Assembly (NCBI GenBank): GCA_021769725.1
Contig: JAETSI010000007.1
Location: 1 to 64,000, forward strand
From: Oscillospiraceae bacterium
GTDB lineage: Bacteria; Bacillota; Clostridia; Oscillospirales; Ruminococcaceae
Length of the DNA stretch: 64,000 nt
Direction of reading: 5' to 3'
Each line of letters begins with the position of its first letter. The first letter of the stretch is position 1. The notes under the pieces were generated by a model. It was not told the origin of the DNA, searched no databases, and saw nothing but the letters and a program-made list of their open reading frames with translations. Shown here one piece after another: positions 1-54,669 of the stretch. The position numbers and the translations under genes are program-made.

Positions 1-114
1 CGCTTACTGCGTCAAAAATCCTTGTCATACGTCAGTATGTCTGCGAATTTTTTCCTTGTAGCCGACAAAATTATGCTCGAAAATCCGCACATAAAAAGAT
101 ACTGAACAGGCTCT
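1..114 (-). repeat. Family A structured repeat, copy cut by window edge
   Basis: Read on the minus strand this begins with AGAGCCTGTTCAGTATCTTT and follows, base for base over most of its length, the elements at 27354-27513 and 48537-48723. Shared internal blocks include ACAAGGAAAAAA, CGCAGACATACTGACG and AAGGATTTTTGACG. The inner CATACTGACGTATG hairpin is present. The second terminal repeat would lie left of the window. It sits downstream of the metK gene pair. Confidence 0.8.
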
Positions 115-1819: not shown

Positions 1820-1966
1820 AATATAAAAACGCTCCGACCGGAGCGTTTCATTTTAATAGAAATCCTCATCTTCCGGGTAAACCGCAGGATTTAGCACCTT
1901 GTCTGATATACAGTCAGGTTGCCGGGCTTCACAGGACCTGTTTCCTCCGCCGCTCTTGATAAGGTT
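1820..1966 (-). promoter_or_regulatory. SAM-I (S-box) riboswitch with intrinsic terminator
   Basis: On the minus strand the leader contains CTTATCAAGAGCGGCGGAGG, then CCTGTGAAGCCCGGCAACCT and a later GGTGCTAAATCCTGC, which are the conserved blocks of the S-box aptamer. It ends with the hairpin AACGCTCC-GGTC-GGAGCGTT (1847-1828) followed by TTTATAT, just before the metK ribosome binding site. This is the known OFF-with-SAM architecture. The aptamer is at about 1862-1966, the terminator at 1822-1847. Confidence 0.96.
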
Positions 1967-14471: not shown

Positions 14472-14631
14472 GGCAACACCGCACAAAGATTGTACCGGAG
14501 ATGCACAGTCGATTTTTTCGTCAGATTGTATAAAAAAACAACGCAGCAGGCTGACGCCTGTCAAGGAGTTTTTGTGCAAGATGACGGAAAAAGCGTAAGC
14601 GGGTTCGGTACAATCTTTGTGCGGTGCCGCC
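14472..14631. repeat. Family B structured repeat (160 bp nested palindrome)
   Basis: Left arm 14472-14497 and right arm 14606-14631 are inverted copies, identical at 24 of 26 positions, with the core CACCGCACAAAGATTGTACC. Inside, TTTTTTCGTCA (around 14513-14523) can pair with TGACGGAAAAA (14582-14592), and the centre has the hairpin CAGGC-TGAC-GCCTG. It carries no protein coding sequence. A minimal hairpin with similar stem bases is at 48728-48769. Confidence 0.85.
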
Positions 14632-23279: not shown

Positions 23280-23364
23280 GCGCCTGTGGTGAAATTGGCA
23301 GACACGCAAGATTTAGGTTCTTGTGCCGTGAGGCATGCAGGTTCGATTCCTGTCAGGCGCACCA
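23280..23364 (+). tRNA. tRNA-Leu, anticodon UAG
   Basis: Acceptor GCGCCTG (23280-23286) pairs with CAGGCGC (23354-23360), followed by ACCA, so CCA is encoded. Anticodon stem CAAGA/TCTTG encloses the loop TTTAGGT with anticodon TAG at 23314-23316. A long variable arm (GCCGTGAGGC) marks it as class II, and GTTCGATTC is the T loop. It reads CUN leucine codons. Confidence 0.97.
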
Positions 23365-27297: not shown

Positions 27298-27326
27298 TTT
27301 ACAATCTGGATTTTTTGTGGTATAAT
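27298..27326 (+). promoter_or_regulatory. Sigma-A promoter of the M15 peptidase gene
   Basis: TTTACA (27298-27303), 17 bp, TATAAT (27321-27326). Transcription would begin near 27333, so the entire family A element at 27354-27513 lies in the untranslated leader. Confidence 0.82.
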
Positions 27327-27353: not shown

Positions 27354-27513
27354 AGAACCTGTTCATTATCTTTTTATGAACGGATTTTAGAGCATGATTT
27401 TGTCGATGACAAGGAAAAAATCCGCAGGCATACTATCGTATGGCAAGGATTTTTGACGTAGCCAACGGCAAAATCTGCCGAAAAGACGTGCGAAAAAATA
27501 CTGAACAGGCTCT
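27354..27513 (+). repeat. Family A structured repeat, near-complete copy
   Basis: Ends AGAACCTGTTCA (27354-27365) and TGAACAGGCTCT (27502-27513) are inverted with one mismatch. Inside, AAAAAATCC/GGATTTTT and CATAC-TATC-GTATG form nested stems, and GATTTTGTCG faces CGGCAAAATC. No open reading frame of note. It aligns along its length with 1-114 (reverse) and 48537-48723. The ribosome site of the downstream gene begins 3 bases after its end. Confidence 0.88.
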
Positions 27514-27531: not shown

Positions 27532-28614
27532 ATGAACAACGGAAATAAGCGTAGAGACAGACGCAGACAAGGCGTTTCTAAAAAATACAGAGTCAGATAC
27601 GACCGTATTGCTGCTGCCGTTCTCGTACTTATTGTTCTGATAGTTATACCCGCTTCCTGCATGAAAAGCTGCAAAAACGGGAAGAAAGACAACAAAAAAA
27701 AGCAGCAGGATAAGACTTCTGCTTCTGATGCGTCAGATATCGGTGATACTACCAGTGGAAATTCTGACTCAACTATTATAGATAATCTGATTACAAGCGA
27801 CGAAACTAATTCTATTCTTACTTCTTCCGACAAGACCAATACAACGGCTGCGGAATATACTACGGAAAATCATTCTTCCGTCGATCTGAGCTGCGGAAAT
27901 CTGATTCTGATAAATCAGGCTCATCAGTATACTTTCCCTGAATCGGATTCCGAGCCTGTTACCCTTTACGATCACATCAAAACTGATTATTACAGTGTAA
28001 GCGATTATGTAATGCGCCTGGATTCTGAAACTATTAATCAACTCAACAATATGATGGAGGCTTTTTATAAGGAATCCAGCAATAATGATATTATGATAAT
28101 CGGCGGATACAGAACACTTGAAGAGCAGAATGATAAGTATAACAGCGGAAGTTCACAGTATCAGGGCGGATATACAGACTATCATACCGCAAGAACCTTT
28201 GATATGGGAATTTTTCCTAAGGACGGTTCGAGTTCGGGATTCTACTCTCCTACCGGAATCTATACGTGGATCGACGAACACGCCGCTAATTACGGCTTCA
28301 TTGTCCGCTATCCGGAAGGCAAGGACAGCATTACAGGTGAAGCTCCGAGAACGCAGACTTACAGATACGTTGGTGTTCCTCATGCTTCTTACATAAAAGA
28401 AAACAGTCTGTGCCTTGAAGAGTATATCGACAAGGTTAAAGAGTATAATAGCAGTAAGCCTTTAGAGATCAGCGTTGGTTCTGATGTATATCATGTATAT
28501 TATGTTCAGGCAAGTTCAGGCAGTGATACGGCAGTTCCGGTTCCTGTAAACAAAACATATACCGTTTCCGGAAATAATTCTGACGGTTTTATTGTGACAG
28601 TAAACATGAACTGA
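27532..28614 (+). CDS. M15 family D-Ala-D-Ala carboxypeptidase (VanY-like)
   Basis: 360 residues. A basic cytoplasmic start and one membrane segment (about 25-43) are followed by a Ser/Thr/Asp-rich linker and an M15B peptidase domain. Zinc-site candidates are His and Asp in YHTARTFDMG and a further His in GVPHASY; IIGGYRTLEEQND is the family's SGYR-type block. Expected to trim the last D-Ala from peptidoglycan stem peptides outside the membrane. AAGGAGAG precedes the ATG, right behind the family A repeat. There is no vancomycin-resistance cluster around it, so a housekeeping role is more likely. Confidence 0.9.
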   Translation: MNNGNKRRDRRRQGVSKKYRVRYDRIAAAVLVLIVLIVIPASCMKSCKNGKKDNKKKQQDKTSASDASDIGDTTSGNSDSTIIDNLITSDETNSILTSSDKTNTTAAEYTTENHSSVDLSCGNLILINQAHQYTFPESDSEPVTLYDHIKTDYYSVSDYVMRLDSETINQLNNMMEAFYKESSNNDIMIIGGYRTLEEQNDKYNSGSSQYQGGYTDYHTARTFDMGIFPKDGSSSGFYSPTGIYTWIDEHAANYGFIVRYPEGKDSITGEAPRTQTYRYVGVPHASYIKENSLCLEEYIDKVKEYNSSKPLEISVGSDVYHVYYVQASSGSDTAVPVPVNKTYTVSGNNSDGFIVTVNMN

Positions 28615-38656: not shown

Positions 38657-38680
38657 CCAGACCACCTCAGAGATAACGTA

Positions 38681-38827
38681 GTCAACAACTTATTAAGTGG
38701 GGACTCTGTCCCCACACCCCTGCCAAAGGGGAATAAATCCCCTTTGGAATCCCAGTATTAATTCATTTCATTACCCATAAAGGGGTAATGAAATGAATTA
38801 GGATGAATATCCATAGGAGAAAAGTCC
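38681..38827 (+). repeat. Family C triple-hairpin repeat, copy 1
   Basis: Contains three successive hairpins: GTGGGGAC/GTCCCCAC, CCAAAGGGGA/TCCCCTTTGG and ATTCATTTCATTACCC/GGGGTAATGAAATGAA. The sequence is matched, in reverse orientation, by 42852-42994. It lies between rsmA and spoIIE, opposite to the direction of transcription. The remaining gap 38828-38931 shows a possible TATAAT on the minus strand near 38880 and nothing else clear. Confidence 0.88.
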
Positions 38828-38931
38828 CTTTAACGTGGTTATAAGAAACAGAATCTATTAAATTGTTGACATTAATATTATTATACCATTATCCTTTGGC
38901 GAAGCCTGTCGTATAAGCAGGTGAGAATCGG

Positions 38932-42785: not shown

Positions 42786-42851
42786 TGTATCCCTCCATTA
42801 ATGCCATATCAAGAACTTAAATGACTCCATTTCTCACCCTCGTGTCACAGC

Positions 42852-42994
42852 GGATTTTCTCTATGGTTATTCACCCTAATTCTTTTCATTACCCCTTTAT
42901 GGGGTAATGAAAAGAATTAATAATGGGTTTCCAAAGGGGATGTACTCCCCTTTGGCAGGGGTGTGGGGACGGCGTCCCCACTTTAAGTTATTGA
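42852..42994 (-). repeat. Family C triple-hairpin repeat, copy 2 (inverted)
   Basis: Reverse-strand copy of 38681-38827 with the same three hairpins; differences are concentrated in loops and in paired changes (TTCTTTTCATTACCCC with GGGGTAATGAAAAGAA here, TTCATTTCATTACCC with GGGTAATGAAATGAA there). The element starts within the last codons of the upstream gene: TCA ATA ACT TAA. It fills most of the gap 42786-42982. Confidence 0.88.
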
Positions 42995-46713: not shown

Positions 46714-48537
46714 ATGGATATCTACGGCTTTTACAAAGGAAATGTATTTAATGCATATGAATATATGGGCGCACATACTTCAAAAAGCGGAACTCTTTTC
46801 CGCACTTATGCTCCGAACGCTTCAAAGGTGTCGGTTATAGGCGATTTCAGCGGTTGGGATGATATTCCAATGAAACCGGCTGCCGACGGAAATTTCTATG
46901 AACTGACCGTTGGCGAAGCTCTTGAAGGAATGCGCTATAAATACCGTATCTACGATAAAAACGGCAATTTTATCGACCACTGCGACCCCTACGGCTACAG
47001 CATGGAGATCCGGCCGGGAACTTGTTCGGTTATCCGCAGCCTGAAAAATTACCGGTTCAGCGACAGCGAATGGATGAACCGTCGGACAGACTGCAAAGAC
47101 AAAGCCATGAACATCTACGAAGTTCACCTCGGCTCATGGAGAAAAGAGACAGACGAGCCGGGGAAATGGTATAATTACGCCGAGATCGCTGATCCGCTCA
47201 TTTCTTATGTCAAGGAATTCGGATATAACTTTATTGAGATCATGCCGCTGAACGAACATCCCTGTGATGAGTCATGGGGATATCAGAGTACCGGATTCTT
47301 CGCCCCCACCTCACGTTACGGCACTCCTGCCCAACTTATGGAATTCGTGGATAAATGCCATCGAAGCAACATCGGCATCATCGTTGATTTCATCCCCGTC
47401 CATTTCGCTGTGGATCACTACGGACTCACCGAATACGACGGCACACATCTCTATGAATATCCCAGCGATGACATCGGCTACAACGAGTGGGGCAGCCGGA
47501 ACTTTATGCACTCCAAAGGCGAAGTAAGGTCGTTTATTCAGTCCGCAGCCGATTACTGGCTTACCGTCTACCACTTTGACGGTCTGAGAATGGATGCCGT
47601 CCGGAATATGATATACTGGAACGGTGACGAAAACCGAGGGGAAAACAAATGCGCTATAGAATTCCTGAGATCAATGAATACCGGTCTGAAAGCAAGACAT
47701 CCCTCTGCAATCATCTCTGCCGAAGATTCTTCCGCATACCCAAAAGTAACCGCTCCGGTATCAGAAGGAGGTCTTGGCTTTGACTATAAATGGGATATGG
47801 GCTGGATGCACGATACTCTTGATTTCTTCCGCAGCTCCCCTATTTTCCGCAGCGGACTGTACAACAAACTGACTTTTTCCATGCTCTATTTCTACAATGA
47901 ACGCTTCATAATGCCTTTGTCTCACGACGAAGTCGTTCACGGCAAAGCGTCTATTGCTCAGAAAATGCACGGAGATTATGAAGATAAATTCCCCCAGGCA
48001 AGGGTATTATATATGTATATGACCGCTCACCCCGGCAAAAAGCTCAACTTTATGGGCAATGAATTTGCACAGCTCCGGGAATGGGACGAAAAGCGCCAGC
48101 AGGACTGGGATATGCTCAGATATCCTGTTCATGATTCCTTCCGCCGCTATATACGTAAGCTCAATATGATCTATCTTAAATACAATGCGCTTCACTACGA
48201 CTACGATCCGACAAATTTCATGTGGGAAGACTGCAATTCTTCCGAACGCTGCGTATATGCGATCAGAAGAAAAAGCAAGGACGGCGATATTCTTACAGTG
48301 CTTAATCTTTCCGACTGGTATCAGCCGGATTACACCGTAAAGATCGGCAGCAATTTCAAGGTAAAACTTCTGCTTGATTCCGACTGTCAGCTATACAACG
48401 GAAGAACTCCGGAGGGAAAAACATCTTTCCAGCCCCATGACGATATGATAACAATGGATATTCCGCCTTACTCCGGATTCATGTTCCTTCTTTCGCAGGA
48501 TAACAGACAAGTTGGCAAAAATCGTGAAGCAAATTAA
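46714..48537 (+). CDS. glgB: 1,4-alpha-glucan branching enzyme (second copy)
   Basis: 607 residues from MDIYGFYKGN, with AAGGTGA upstream. CBM48 (about 15-110) then GH13 barrel: nucleophile Asp in GLRMDAVRNMIYW, acid/base Glu in IISAEDSSAYP and PLSHDEVVHGKASI. Compared with the operon copy it lacks the Lys-rich tail and the segment with GGNENLEA after the nucleophile is replaced by a short NGDENRGENKCAIEF. It may prefer other chain lengths or act on another glucan. Own promoter, and a family A repeat begins at the last base of its stop codon. Confidence 0.94.
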   Translation: MDIYGFYKGNVFNAYEYMGAHTSKSGTLFRTYAPNASKVSVIGDFSGWDDIPMKPAADGNFYELTVGEALEGMRYKYRIYDKNGNFIDHCDPYGYSMEIRPGTCSVIRSLKNYRFSDSEWMNRRTDCKDKAMNIYEVHLGSWRKETDEPGKWYNYAEIADPLISYVKEFGYNFIEIMPLNEHPCDESWGYQSTGFFAPTSRYGTPAQLMEFVDKCHRSNIGIIVDFIPVHFAVDHYGLTEYDGTHLYEYPSDDIGYNEWGSRNFMHSKGEVRSFIQSAADYWLTVYHFDGLRMDAVRNMIYWNGDENRGENKCAIEFLRSMNTGLKARHPSAIISAEDSSAYPKVTAPVSEGGLGFDYKWDMGWMHDTLDFFRSSPIFRSGLYNKLTFSMLYFYNERFIMPLSHDEVVHGKASIAQKMHGDYEDKFPQARVLYMYMTAHPGKKLNFMGNEFAQLREWDEKRQQDWDMLRYPVHDSFRRYIRKLNMIYLKYNALHYDYDPTNFMWEDCNSSERCVYAIRRKSKDGDILTVLNLSDWYQPDYTVKIGSNFKVKLLLDSDCQLYNGRTPEGKTSFQPHDDMITMDIPPYSGFMFLLSQDNRQVGKNREAN

Positions 48538-48723
48538 GAACCTGTCTTCATAAGATATGTGTGCAGATTTTCGAGCAAATTTTACCGATTACAAGGAAAA
48601 AAGTCGCAGGCATACTGACGTCCCTAAAGGGATTTCCGTTGGTCATATAGCAAGGATTTTTGACGCAGTAAGCAGCGAAATTTGCCGAAAAGATGTGCAA
48701 ATTATCTTGTGAAGACAGGTTCT
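48537..48723 (+). repeat. Family A structured repeat, longest copy
   Basis: Ends AGAACCTGTCTTCA (48537-48550) and TGAAGACAGGTTCT (48710-48723) are perfectly inverted over 14 bp and extend to 20 of 21. Internal blocks are shared with the copies at 1-114 and 27354-27513 (ACAAGGAAAAAA, CGCAGGCATACTGACG, AAGGATTTTTGACGCAGTAAGC). It carries an extra inner hairpin CCC-TAAA-GGG. The first base is the last base of the glgB stop codon. Confidence 0.9.
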
Positions 48724-48727
48724 AAGG

Positions 48728-48779
48728 CAGCACCGTACAAAGCCGTCAGAATAGCTTTGTACGGTGCTGTTTTGTATTG
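48728..48779 (+). terminator. Hairpin with family B stem; likely glgB terminator
   Basis: CAGCACCGTACAAAGC (48728-48743) and GCTTTGTACGGTGCTG (48754-48769) form a perfect 16-bp stem with a 10-nt loop, followed by TTTTGTATT. The stem resembles the arms of the family B repeat at 14472-14631 (CACCGCACAAAG). Confidence 0.8.
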
Positions 48780-54408: not shown

Positions 54409-54485
54409 TGGCGTCCCAAAGAGGAGTCGAACCTCCGGCCTGCTGCTTAGGAGGCAGCCGCTCTATCCTACTGAGCTATTGGGAC
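54409..54485 (-). tRNA. tRNA-Arg, anticodon CCU
   Basis: On the minus strand the acceptor GTCCCAA pairs with TTGGGAC, followed by GCCA, so CCA is encoded. Anticodon stem GCTGC/GCAGC holds the loop CTCCTAA with anticodon CCT (54451-54449). T arm GGAGG-TTCGACT-CCTCT (one non-Watson-Crick pair at most). 77 bases, reads AGG. Confidence 0.97.
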
Positions 54486-54632: not shown

Positions 54633-54669
54633 AAGTAAGTAAATATATACATATAACACGGAGGCTGAA

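Follow-up and report, generated by a model that had tools for sequence, protein, structure and literature searches.

The window analysed here, 64,000 nucleotides of a contig from an Oscillospiraceae bacterium, carries a gene for a VanY-like D-Ala-D-Ala carboxypeptidase (M15), and between the promoter-like site and the ribosome site of this gene lies a short element whose inverted ends are complementary to each other at all but one of 12 positions (11 of 12; Table 1). The first-pass annotation had placed the element at 27354-27513, which is correct within one base, and its account of 12-bp inverted ends, of a promoter upstream and of an interior lacking a transposase agrees with what we find: there is no transposase and no open reading frame of 80 amino acids within the element. 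Compared with the family end that we call F1, GAGCCTGTTCAGTATC, its own ends deviate at 2 of 16 and 1 of 16 positions. Our Rfam search of the element gave nothing above the gathering score, the best hit being at chance level (E 6), and a known Rfam family is therefore rejected. Elsewhere in the window, Rfam marks a SAM riboswitch and two tRNA genes, at 1863-1965 (minus strand), 23280-23361 (plus) and 54412-54485 (minus).

Table 1. The M15 locus and the copies of the element in the window
Feature	Position	Strand	Remarks
VanY-like D-Ala-D-Ala carboxypeptidase gene (M15)	27532..28614	+	PF02557
Promoter-like TTTACA-17-TATAAT, upstream of the insertion	27298..27326	+	11/12 consensus positions
F1-type MITE, 158 bp	27355..27512	+ (plus = best-folding strand)	ends GAACCTGTTCATTATC / GAGCCTGTTCAGTATT
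Left target-site duplication TAA	27352..27354	.	flank reading; empty site TTTAAGGAGAG in relative G119
Right target-site duplication TAA	27513..27515	.	overlaps start of Shine-Dalgarno AAGGAGAG
Conserved folding core, 124 model positions	27373..27496	+	core model R1, 121.8 bits
Second F1 copy, 185 bp	48538..48722	+	end GAACCTGTCTTCATAA; TAA both sides
Third F1 copy	1..113	-	end GAGCCTGTTCAGTATC; truncated by contig start, so duplication uncheckable
Fourth copy, with F2 ends (GGCAACACCGCACAAAG) around a core of the same plan	14472..14631	+	CATA / CATA flanks; R1 34.2 bits

Comparison with a relative, G119, shows that the element jumped into the Shine-Dalgarno region of the M15 gene, at the TAA of TAAGGAG, and duplicated this TAA. 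The M15 protein of G119 is 93% identical to that of the window, and its gene is preceded by the promoter and then by AAATTTAAGGAGAG with no insert, the empty site TTTAAGGAGAG having exactly one TAA. The promoter-like site is aligned in three relatives (G119, G050 and G056), all without the insert. The stretch common to the window and G119 extends over approximately 33 kb at approximately 82-91% identity in long blocks, and the M15 insert is found only in the window. Because the insertion struck the opening TAA of TAAGGAG and this TAA was duplicated, the ribosome site AAGGAGAG, which starts within the right-hand TAA, was preserved. The element is short and non-coding, has terminal inverted repeats, a target-site duplication and an empty site, and has relatives with the same ends that are autonomous in the genus, all of which are features of a MITE. 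The empty site, the target duplication, matching IS5-family transposons and strong covariation bear out the earlier description of a MITE or a mobile structured RNA element.

The likeness claimed to two other places in the window is significant for both: the minus strand of 1-118 is 86% identical to the M15 element over 112 nt (E 4e-33), where the contig start cuts the match, and 48531-48727 is 67% identical (E 1e-13). This second copy has approximately 25 extra nt in its apical loop. At its site, the window and G119 each have an F1-type copy, and the two copies differ in ends, target triplets and core type; we take these as two insertions, not as proof of end swapping. Directly after it, at 48726-48769, is a terminator-like hairpin, GGCAGCACCGTACAAAG...CTTTGTACGGTGCTG, which resembles the F2 terminal repeat. 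The fourth copy was detected by the core model at E 1.3e-6 in the window and 7.6e-5 in the whole genome, and is not significant by a sequence-only profile (8.9 bits, E 3.4). In the window's genome, blastn with the M15 element found 34 matching places, several of which end at contig ends, as is expected of near-identical recent copies, and the core model found 75 places at E <= 1, 67 of them at E <= 0.001. A single ancient leader absent elsewhere in the genome, which had been offered as grounds for refutation, is contradicted by these many copies and by the empty site in the relative. Two lone F1 terminal repeats with no second end found nearby (L037, G000:C72:21039, and L042, G000:C115:25001) adjoin the ends of reading frames, and we suggest that they are relics or deletion footprints. 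The same comparison with G119 revealed other insertions as well. Opposite an empty site at 54642 of the window, G119 has a ~160-bp insert (L428, G119:C14 ~48085-48241) with a GGGC-TGAC-GCCC hairpin and with ends that differ again, AGACCTCCTCGGAAACTAA. An inverted pair of another ~190-bp repeat with a CCCATAAAGGGG hairpin (38680-38874 and 42795-42989) is present in the window and absent in G119, and the core model has no match to either member.

Target duplications and complete transposons point to the enzymes that may move F1 elements. Of 73 distinct near-full copies, 53 have equal 3-bp flanks, where random left/right pairing would give 32% (binomial p 1e-12), and 51 of the 53 triplets are TAA or TTA; 58 of the 73 copies are 159-162 bp long. 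These copies come from the window's genome, its genus and public genomes (99 near-full matches less 5 without clear ends and 21 duplicates, with 54 partial matches set aside), and the public-genome scan, having been made with one end type, biases the set towards that type. The same scan found partial transposase genes beside such ends, and one transposase fragment has relatives in 16 of the 125 genus genomes searched. The suggested check for transposons with matching ends uncovered IS5-family elements with F1 ends and the duplication in the genus. Two complete elements of IS5 type (L227 and L228, 882-884 bp) have the ends GAGCCTGTTCAGTATC with TAA or TTA on both sides, and a third (L233, 806 bp) has the ends GAACCTGTCCACATAG with TTA on both sides. 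Further IS5-type elements in the genus have the ends GAACTTGTCTTCACAAG and GAACTTGTTCTCATAG, and the flanking triplets of L242, L244, L235 and L238 are unequal. Both of the transposases scanned with Pfam consist of two frames, DUF4096 and DDE_Tnp_1, and their second frames are mutually 31% identical. These sequence matches support the idea that the M15 element is of a type that would be moved in trans by IS5-family (DUF4096 plus DDE_Tnp_1) transposases. No intact IS5 with F1 ends was seen in the window's genome, whose 213 contigs could hide one; the genome has one match to the transposase fragment, decayed and containing a stop (L234), and no DDE_Tnp_4 transposase was found in it. The six PF01609 matches of this genome are probably not the partner: the TNA plus GARC-type end pattern gave nothing in all six loci, and two of them (L059 and L061) are flanked by inverted repeats of other sequences.

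The M15 element belongs to an order-wide family that has a conserved, covarying core of ~124 nt, a usual length of ~156-172 bp and, surrounding the core, many different matched pairs of terminal repeats. A core-only covariance model, R1, was built from 36 copies with F1-kind ends. It has matches in 83 of 125 genomes of the genus and in 141 of 394 genomes, or 66 of 168 genera, sampled across the order; both scans used strict filters and scored 28 and 9 candidates in each genome, which makes the counts per genome lower bounds. The blastn and covariance-model check proposed in the first-pass annotation thus places the element in an order-wide family with many copies. In the window's genome, R1 also matches copies with non-F1 ends, at E down to 4.5e-16 (the F4 copy L300), and the 29 order-level copies have, by eye, many further end types around CAAGG ... 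CGCAG - hairpin - CAAGG ... CGCAG. Eight stool-phage records match the core and none of them matches the query's ends; a search of plasmids gave no match. The literature searched, with most subscription journals outside its reach, held no description of such a family. In one genome of another genus of the bacterial family (L429, G440 contigs C1-C5), at least 9 copies share the top score of 131 bits, which is probably a very recent burst. At L442, L448 and L450, two core matches on opposite strands lie side by side within ~230 bp, possibly forming a double-core element.

From one copy to another, the ends can be wholly unrelated. Among the 67 own-genome places examined (out of 75, leaving out five contig-end pieces and three others), 56 have matched ends, which fall into seven families in our grouping by likeness to hand-chosen end sequences (F1 18, F3 16, F2 14, F4 4, F5 2, F6 1 and F8 1); the other 11 are without matched ends, several being truncated. 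F2 ends are GGCARCACCGCACAAAG, and F3 ends are TACTC.CCTCTRTTGCAA and variants, with TA flanks. The 4-bp duplication of F2 occurs in 10 of 18 copies against 4.9 expected; the TA flanks of F3 are invariant and so offer no statistical proof of duplication. From their different ends and different duplications (3 bp for F1, 4 bp for F2, TA for F3), we infer that ends have been exchanged between F1, F2 and F3. In one chimera (L343, G000:C73:6671-6749 plus flanks), an F3 end is combined with an F1 end, which makes this copy a possible intermediate of such an exchange. Within F1, end exchange is likely, not proven. Pairs of copies that both have end type A are 0.92 alike in their terminal repeats and 0.65 in their cores, and A-B pairs are 0.56 and 0.67 alike, respectively; in the 10 B-B pairs the ends are 0.90 and the cores 0.80 alike, so that B cores are closer to each other than to A. 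A core tree of 61 typed copies and 121 columns (9 copies dropped for length or poor ends and 6 as untyped, 4 of the 7 order-level copies being untyped) requires 14 end changes, the minimum being 5 and the shuffled mean 20.9, and end types are clustered on it. Its well-supported branches force at least 4 end changes for B, and in AU tests on these 121 columns, which are few, a single origin is rejected neither for B (p 0.11) nor for E (p 0.10). No autonomous partner with paired F2, F3, F4, F5, F6 or F8 ends was found in the loci examined, nor a partner for the F2 end in the 11 viral-contig stretches found, and no viral contig matched the F3 end pattern. An IS630-like DDE_3 element in G051 (L377) has a terminal inverted repeat, TATACTATCCACTATTGCAAATT versus TATACTCCCCTCTATTGCAAAAC, similar to F3 ends, the only such case in the 17 loci checked for ends of 30 with IS630-type genes. 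On this resemblance, the F3 partner may be IS630-like.

The core fold is conserved by compensatory change. The M15 element folds at -56.7 kcal/mol, against a mean of -33.5 (sd 3.6) for 200 shuffles (z -6.5). In the core alignment, from which the fold itself was taken and whose statistics ignore relatedness, 93.5% of cells pair versus 79.0% with the 3' letters shuffled (0 of 500 shuffles as high), pairing falls to 35-48% when the partners are slid by 1-3 columns, and double changes occur in 35 of 43 core pairs. Fold conservation appears somewhat stronger on one strand: RNAalifold gave -60.8 kcal/mol on the window's plus strand versus -26.7 on the other with separate alignments, and -124.7 versus -99.6 with a single alignment and another scoring. 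In pairs independently predicted by both strands, G-U cells outnumber A-C cells in F1 (90 vs 51), F3 (30 vs 10) and F2 (21 vs 12), F4 with its four copies being left out. Counted by columns the ratios are 27:12 (p 0.024), 17:6 (p 0.035) and 10:9 (p 1.0), respectively, and 54:27 in sum (p 0.0036), again with statistics that ignore relatedness. This excess, which is of moderate size and does not show in the column counts of F2, points to selection on a single-stranded form. At two close sites, a wobble UG is found in 28 and 29 of the 36 rows, and by eye the CAAGG / CGCAG internal loops are kept in copies from many genomes.

Several other explanations could account for parts of these results. Its place after a good promoter and before the ribosome site, together with a strong fold whose strand is the sense strand, might suggest a leader RNA that regulates the M15 gene in cis, as an attenuator or riboswitch. 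However, the element is missing from the 93% relative, and the core model, run on both strands of 30 M15 loci (the best 30 of the matches in 125 genomes), found a copy in just one, namely the window's own. With 1 of 30 loci occupied, the element is not an ancestral regulator, and it lacks the conservation at the gene across relatives that marks a riboswitch or regulatory leader. An ancestral regulatory leader is ruled out by the absence from G119 and from all 29 M15 loci scanned besides the window's own. The genome also has dozens of further copies, in every orientation, and Rfam gave no match. At 60 of 63 places, those with a gene called on both sides, 20 copies run the same way as the genes around them and 17 the opposite way, 13 lie between divergent genes and 10 between convergent genes (the reading-frame calls are crude, and 8 places overlap a called frame); this lack of a preferred orientation gives no sign of a host-level RNA role. 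We therefore give the leader explanation hardly any credence. Of the first-pass reading that the element has become part of a regulatory leader, only the position stands, and nothing shows the M15 gene to be regulated by the element. Another explanation concerns the family itself: the likeness of cores with different ends could be an artefact of a covariance model that scores any long hairpin. The reverse strands of true copies do score 14 to 28 bits with R1, most F2 and F3 matches reach just 34 to 60 bits, and several of these score weakly by sequence alone. Nevertheless, the decoy R2, a single model with its columns permuted in order and with column content and pairing nearly the same, had nothing at E 1 in 271 kb and nothing in 29 order-level loci, whereas R1, at E 0.05, had 76 matches in the loci that make up 207 kb of that sequence (with some places counted more than once where loci overlap), more in the window, and 35 at E 0.01 in the order-level loci. 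The sequence-only profile recovered most F2, F3 and F4 copies at 9 to 36 bits, ranking many above chance, with several F2 and F3 copies not significant; by eye, the loops keep their letters. Through the decoy and this profile, a generic-hairpin artefact is largely rejected, and we regard it as very improbable.

The two remaining alternatives accept the family and explain its fold differently. In an ordinary DNA palindrome MITE, the fold would be a by-product of fold-back copying or cruciform repair, which would keep the inverted arms alike, and would have no single-stranded role. Matched ends and double changes would then need no selection, and the indifference of the copies to gene orientation and the even F2 columns agree with this idea. 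However, fold-back copying would perfect the pairing, yet the wobble pairs and the CAAGG / CGCAG loops persist, and the summed excess of G-U over A-C columns also speaks against it; we consider the palindrome explanation rather unlikely while taking it seriously. The element could also move as folded single-stranded DNA, its terminal repeats being secondary, as a single-strand hairpin element of the attC- or REP-like kind. The one-strand fold bias, the recurring internal loops and the quasi-palindrome would fit such an element, but the transposase-type target duplications, the full IS5 elements with the same ends and the clean empty site make it improbable.

Taking these results together, we think it quite probable that the family consists of non-coding mini-transposons in which the folding core is conserved while the terminal repeats are exchanged, the M15 copy being of the type moved by IS5-family transposases. 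The leader element itself, absent from the aligned G119 site and ordinary in its landing, is a mini-transposon, and copies in leaders such as that of the M15 gene would be incidental landings. The core would be the stable unit of the family, and its ends could be replaced via recombination inside the homologous core, one arm per event, as the chimera L343 may illustrate; a second exchange, or else fold-back copying, would then restore symmetry. In this way, the element may pass between transposases of IS5 types, probably of an IS630-like type, and of at least one more. Less certainly, the core may be kept because one single strand, most likely a transcript, must fold into a rod. Such a rod would have fixed internal loops, and its wobble pairs and mismatches would preserve this fold and at the same time avoid a long perfect DNA palindrome. 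Only tentatively, and at less than even chances, do we propose a wider reading in which the core is itself a selfish module of structured RNA (or ssDNA), spread across the order. It would survive by repeatedly changing its terminal repeats, so that transposases of unrelated families (IS5, IS630-like and others) carry it, and selection would act on its one-strand fold.

RUP of Streptococcus pneumoniae is an IS630-associated, MITE-like element; by description it shares the TA target with the present F3 copies, and we know of no common core reported for it. Correia/NEMIS and ERIC have, to our knowledge, one end type each. Both are folding repeats like the present family, but of other taxa, and, compared by description in the portion of the review drawn on here, they have folding transcripts with RNase III cleavage or an effect on mRNA decay (PMC10969869). 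The same portion describes bacterial IS5-family MITEs as shorter than 500 bp, with terminal inverted repeats and target duplications, moved in trans by an IS, intergenic, and with a predicted folding transcript, general features that are common to the M15 element family (PMC10969869). The MITEs described there are decayed transposable elements, whereas here the interior is common to copies with unrelated ends (PMC10969869), and the core model had no match in the 11 scanned loci with IS5- or IS630-like genes. The bcr1 repeat of the Bacillus cereus group is 147-167 bp long and has tens of copies in each genome, a predicted conserved structure and signs of mobility, and by description the present family is alike in all of these (PMC6542083, PMC2267715). 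In the sections of those papers used for comparison, mobility of the bcr1 type is linked with a TTTAT motif and perhaps with a site-specific-like mechanism, whereas the targets here are TAA or TTA, and exchangeable ends are not mentioned for bcr1 (PMC6542083, PMC2267715).

The results have a practical side for annotation: leader RNAs in such genomes may be insertions that are absent from relatives. In the usual view, a MITE is a relic of one insertion sequence, in which the ends matter and the interior does not. The core family reverses this view, its interior being constant and its ends changeable. If this holds, a structured RNA or ssDNA motif with no Rfam match would be widespread in gut and rumen bacteria, and such a parasite could escape extinction once its transposase dies out.
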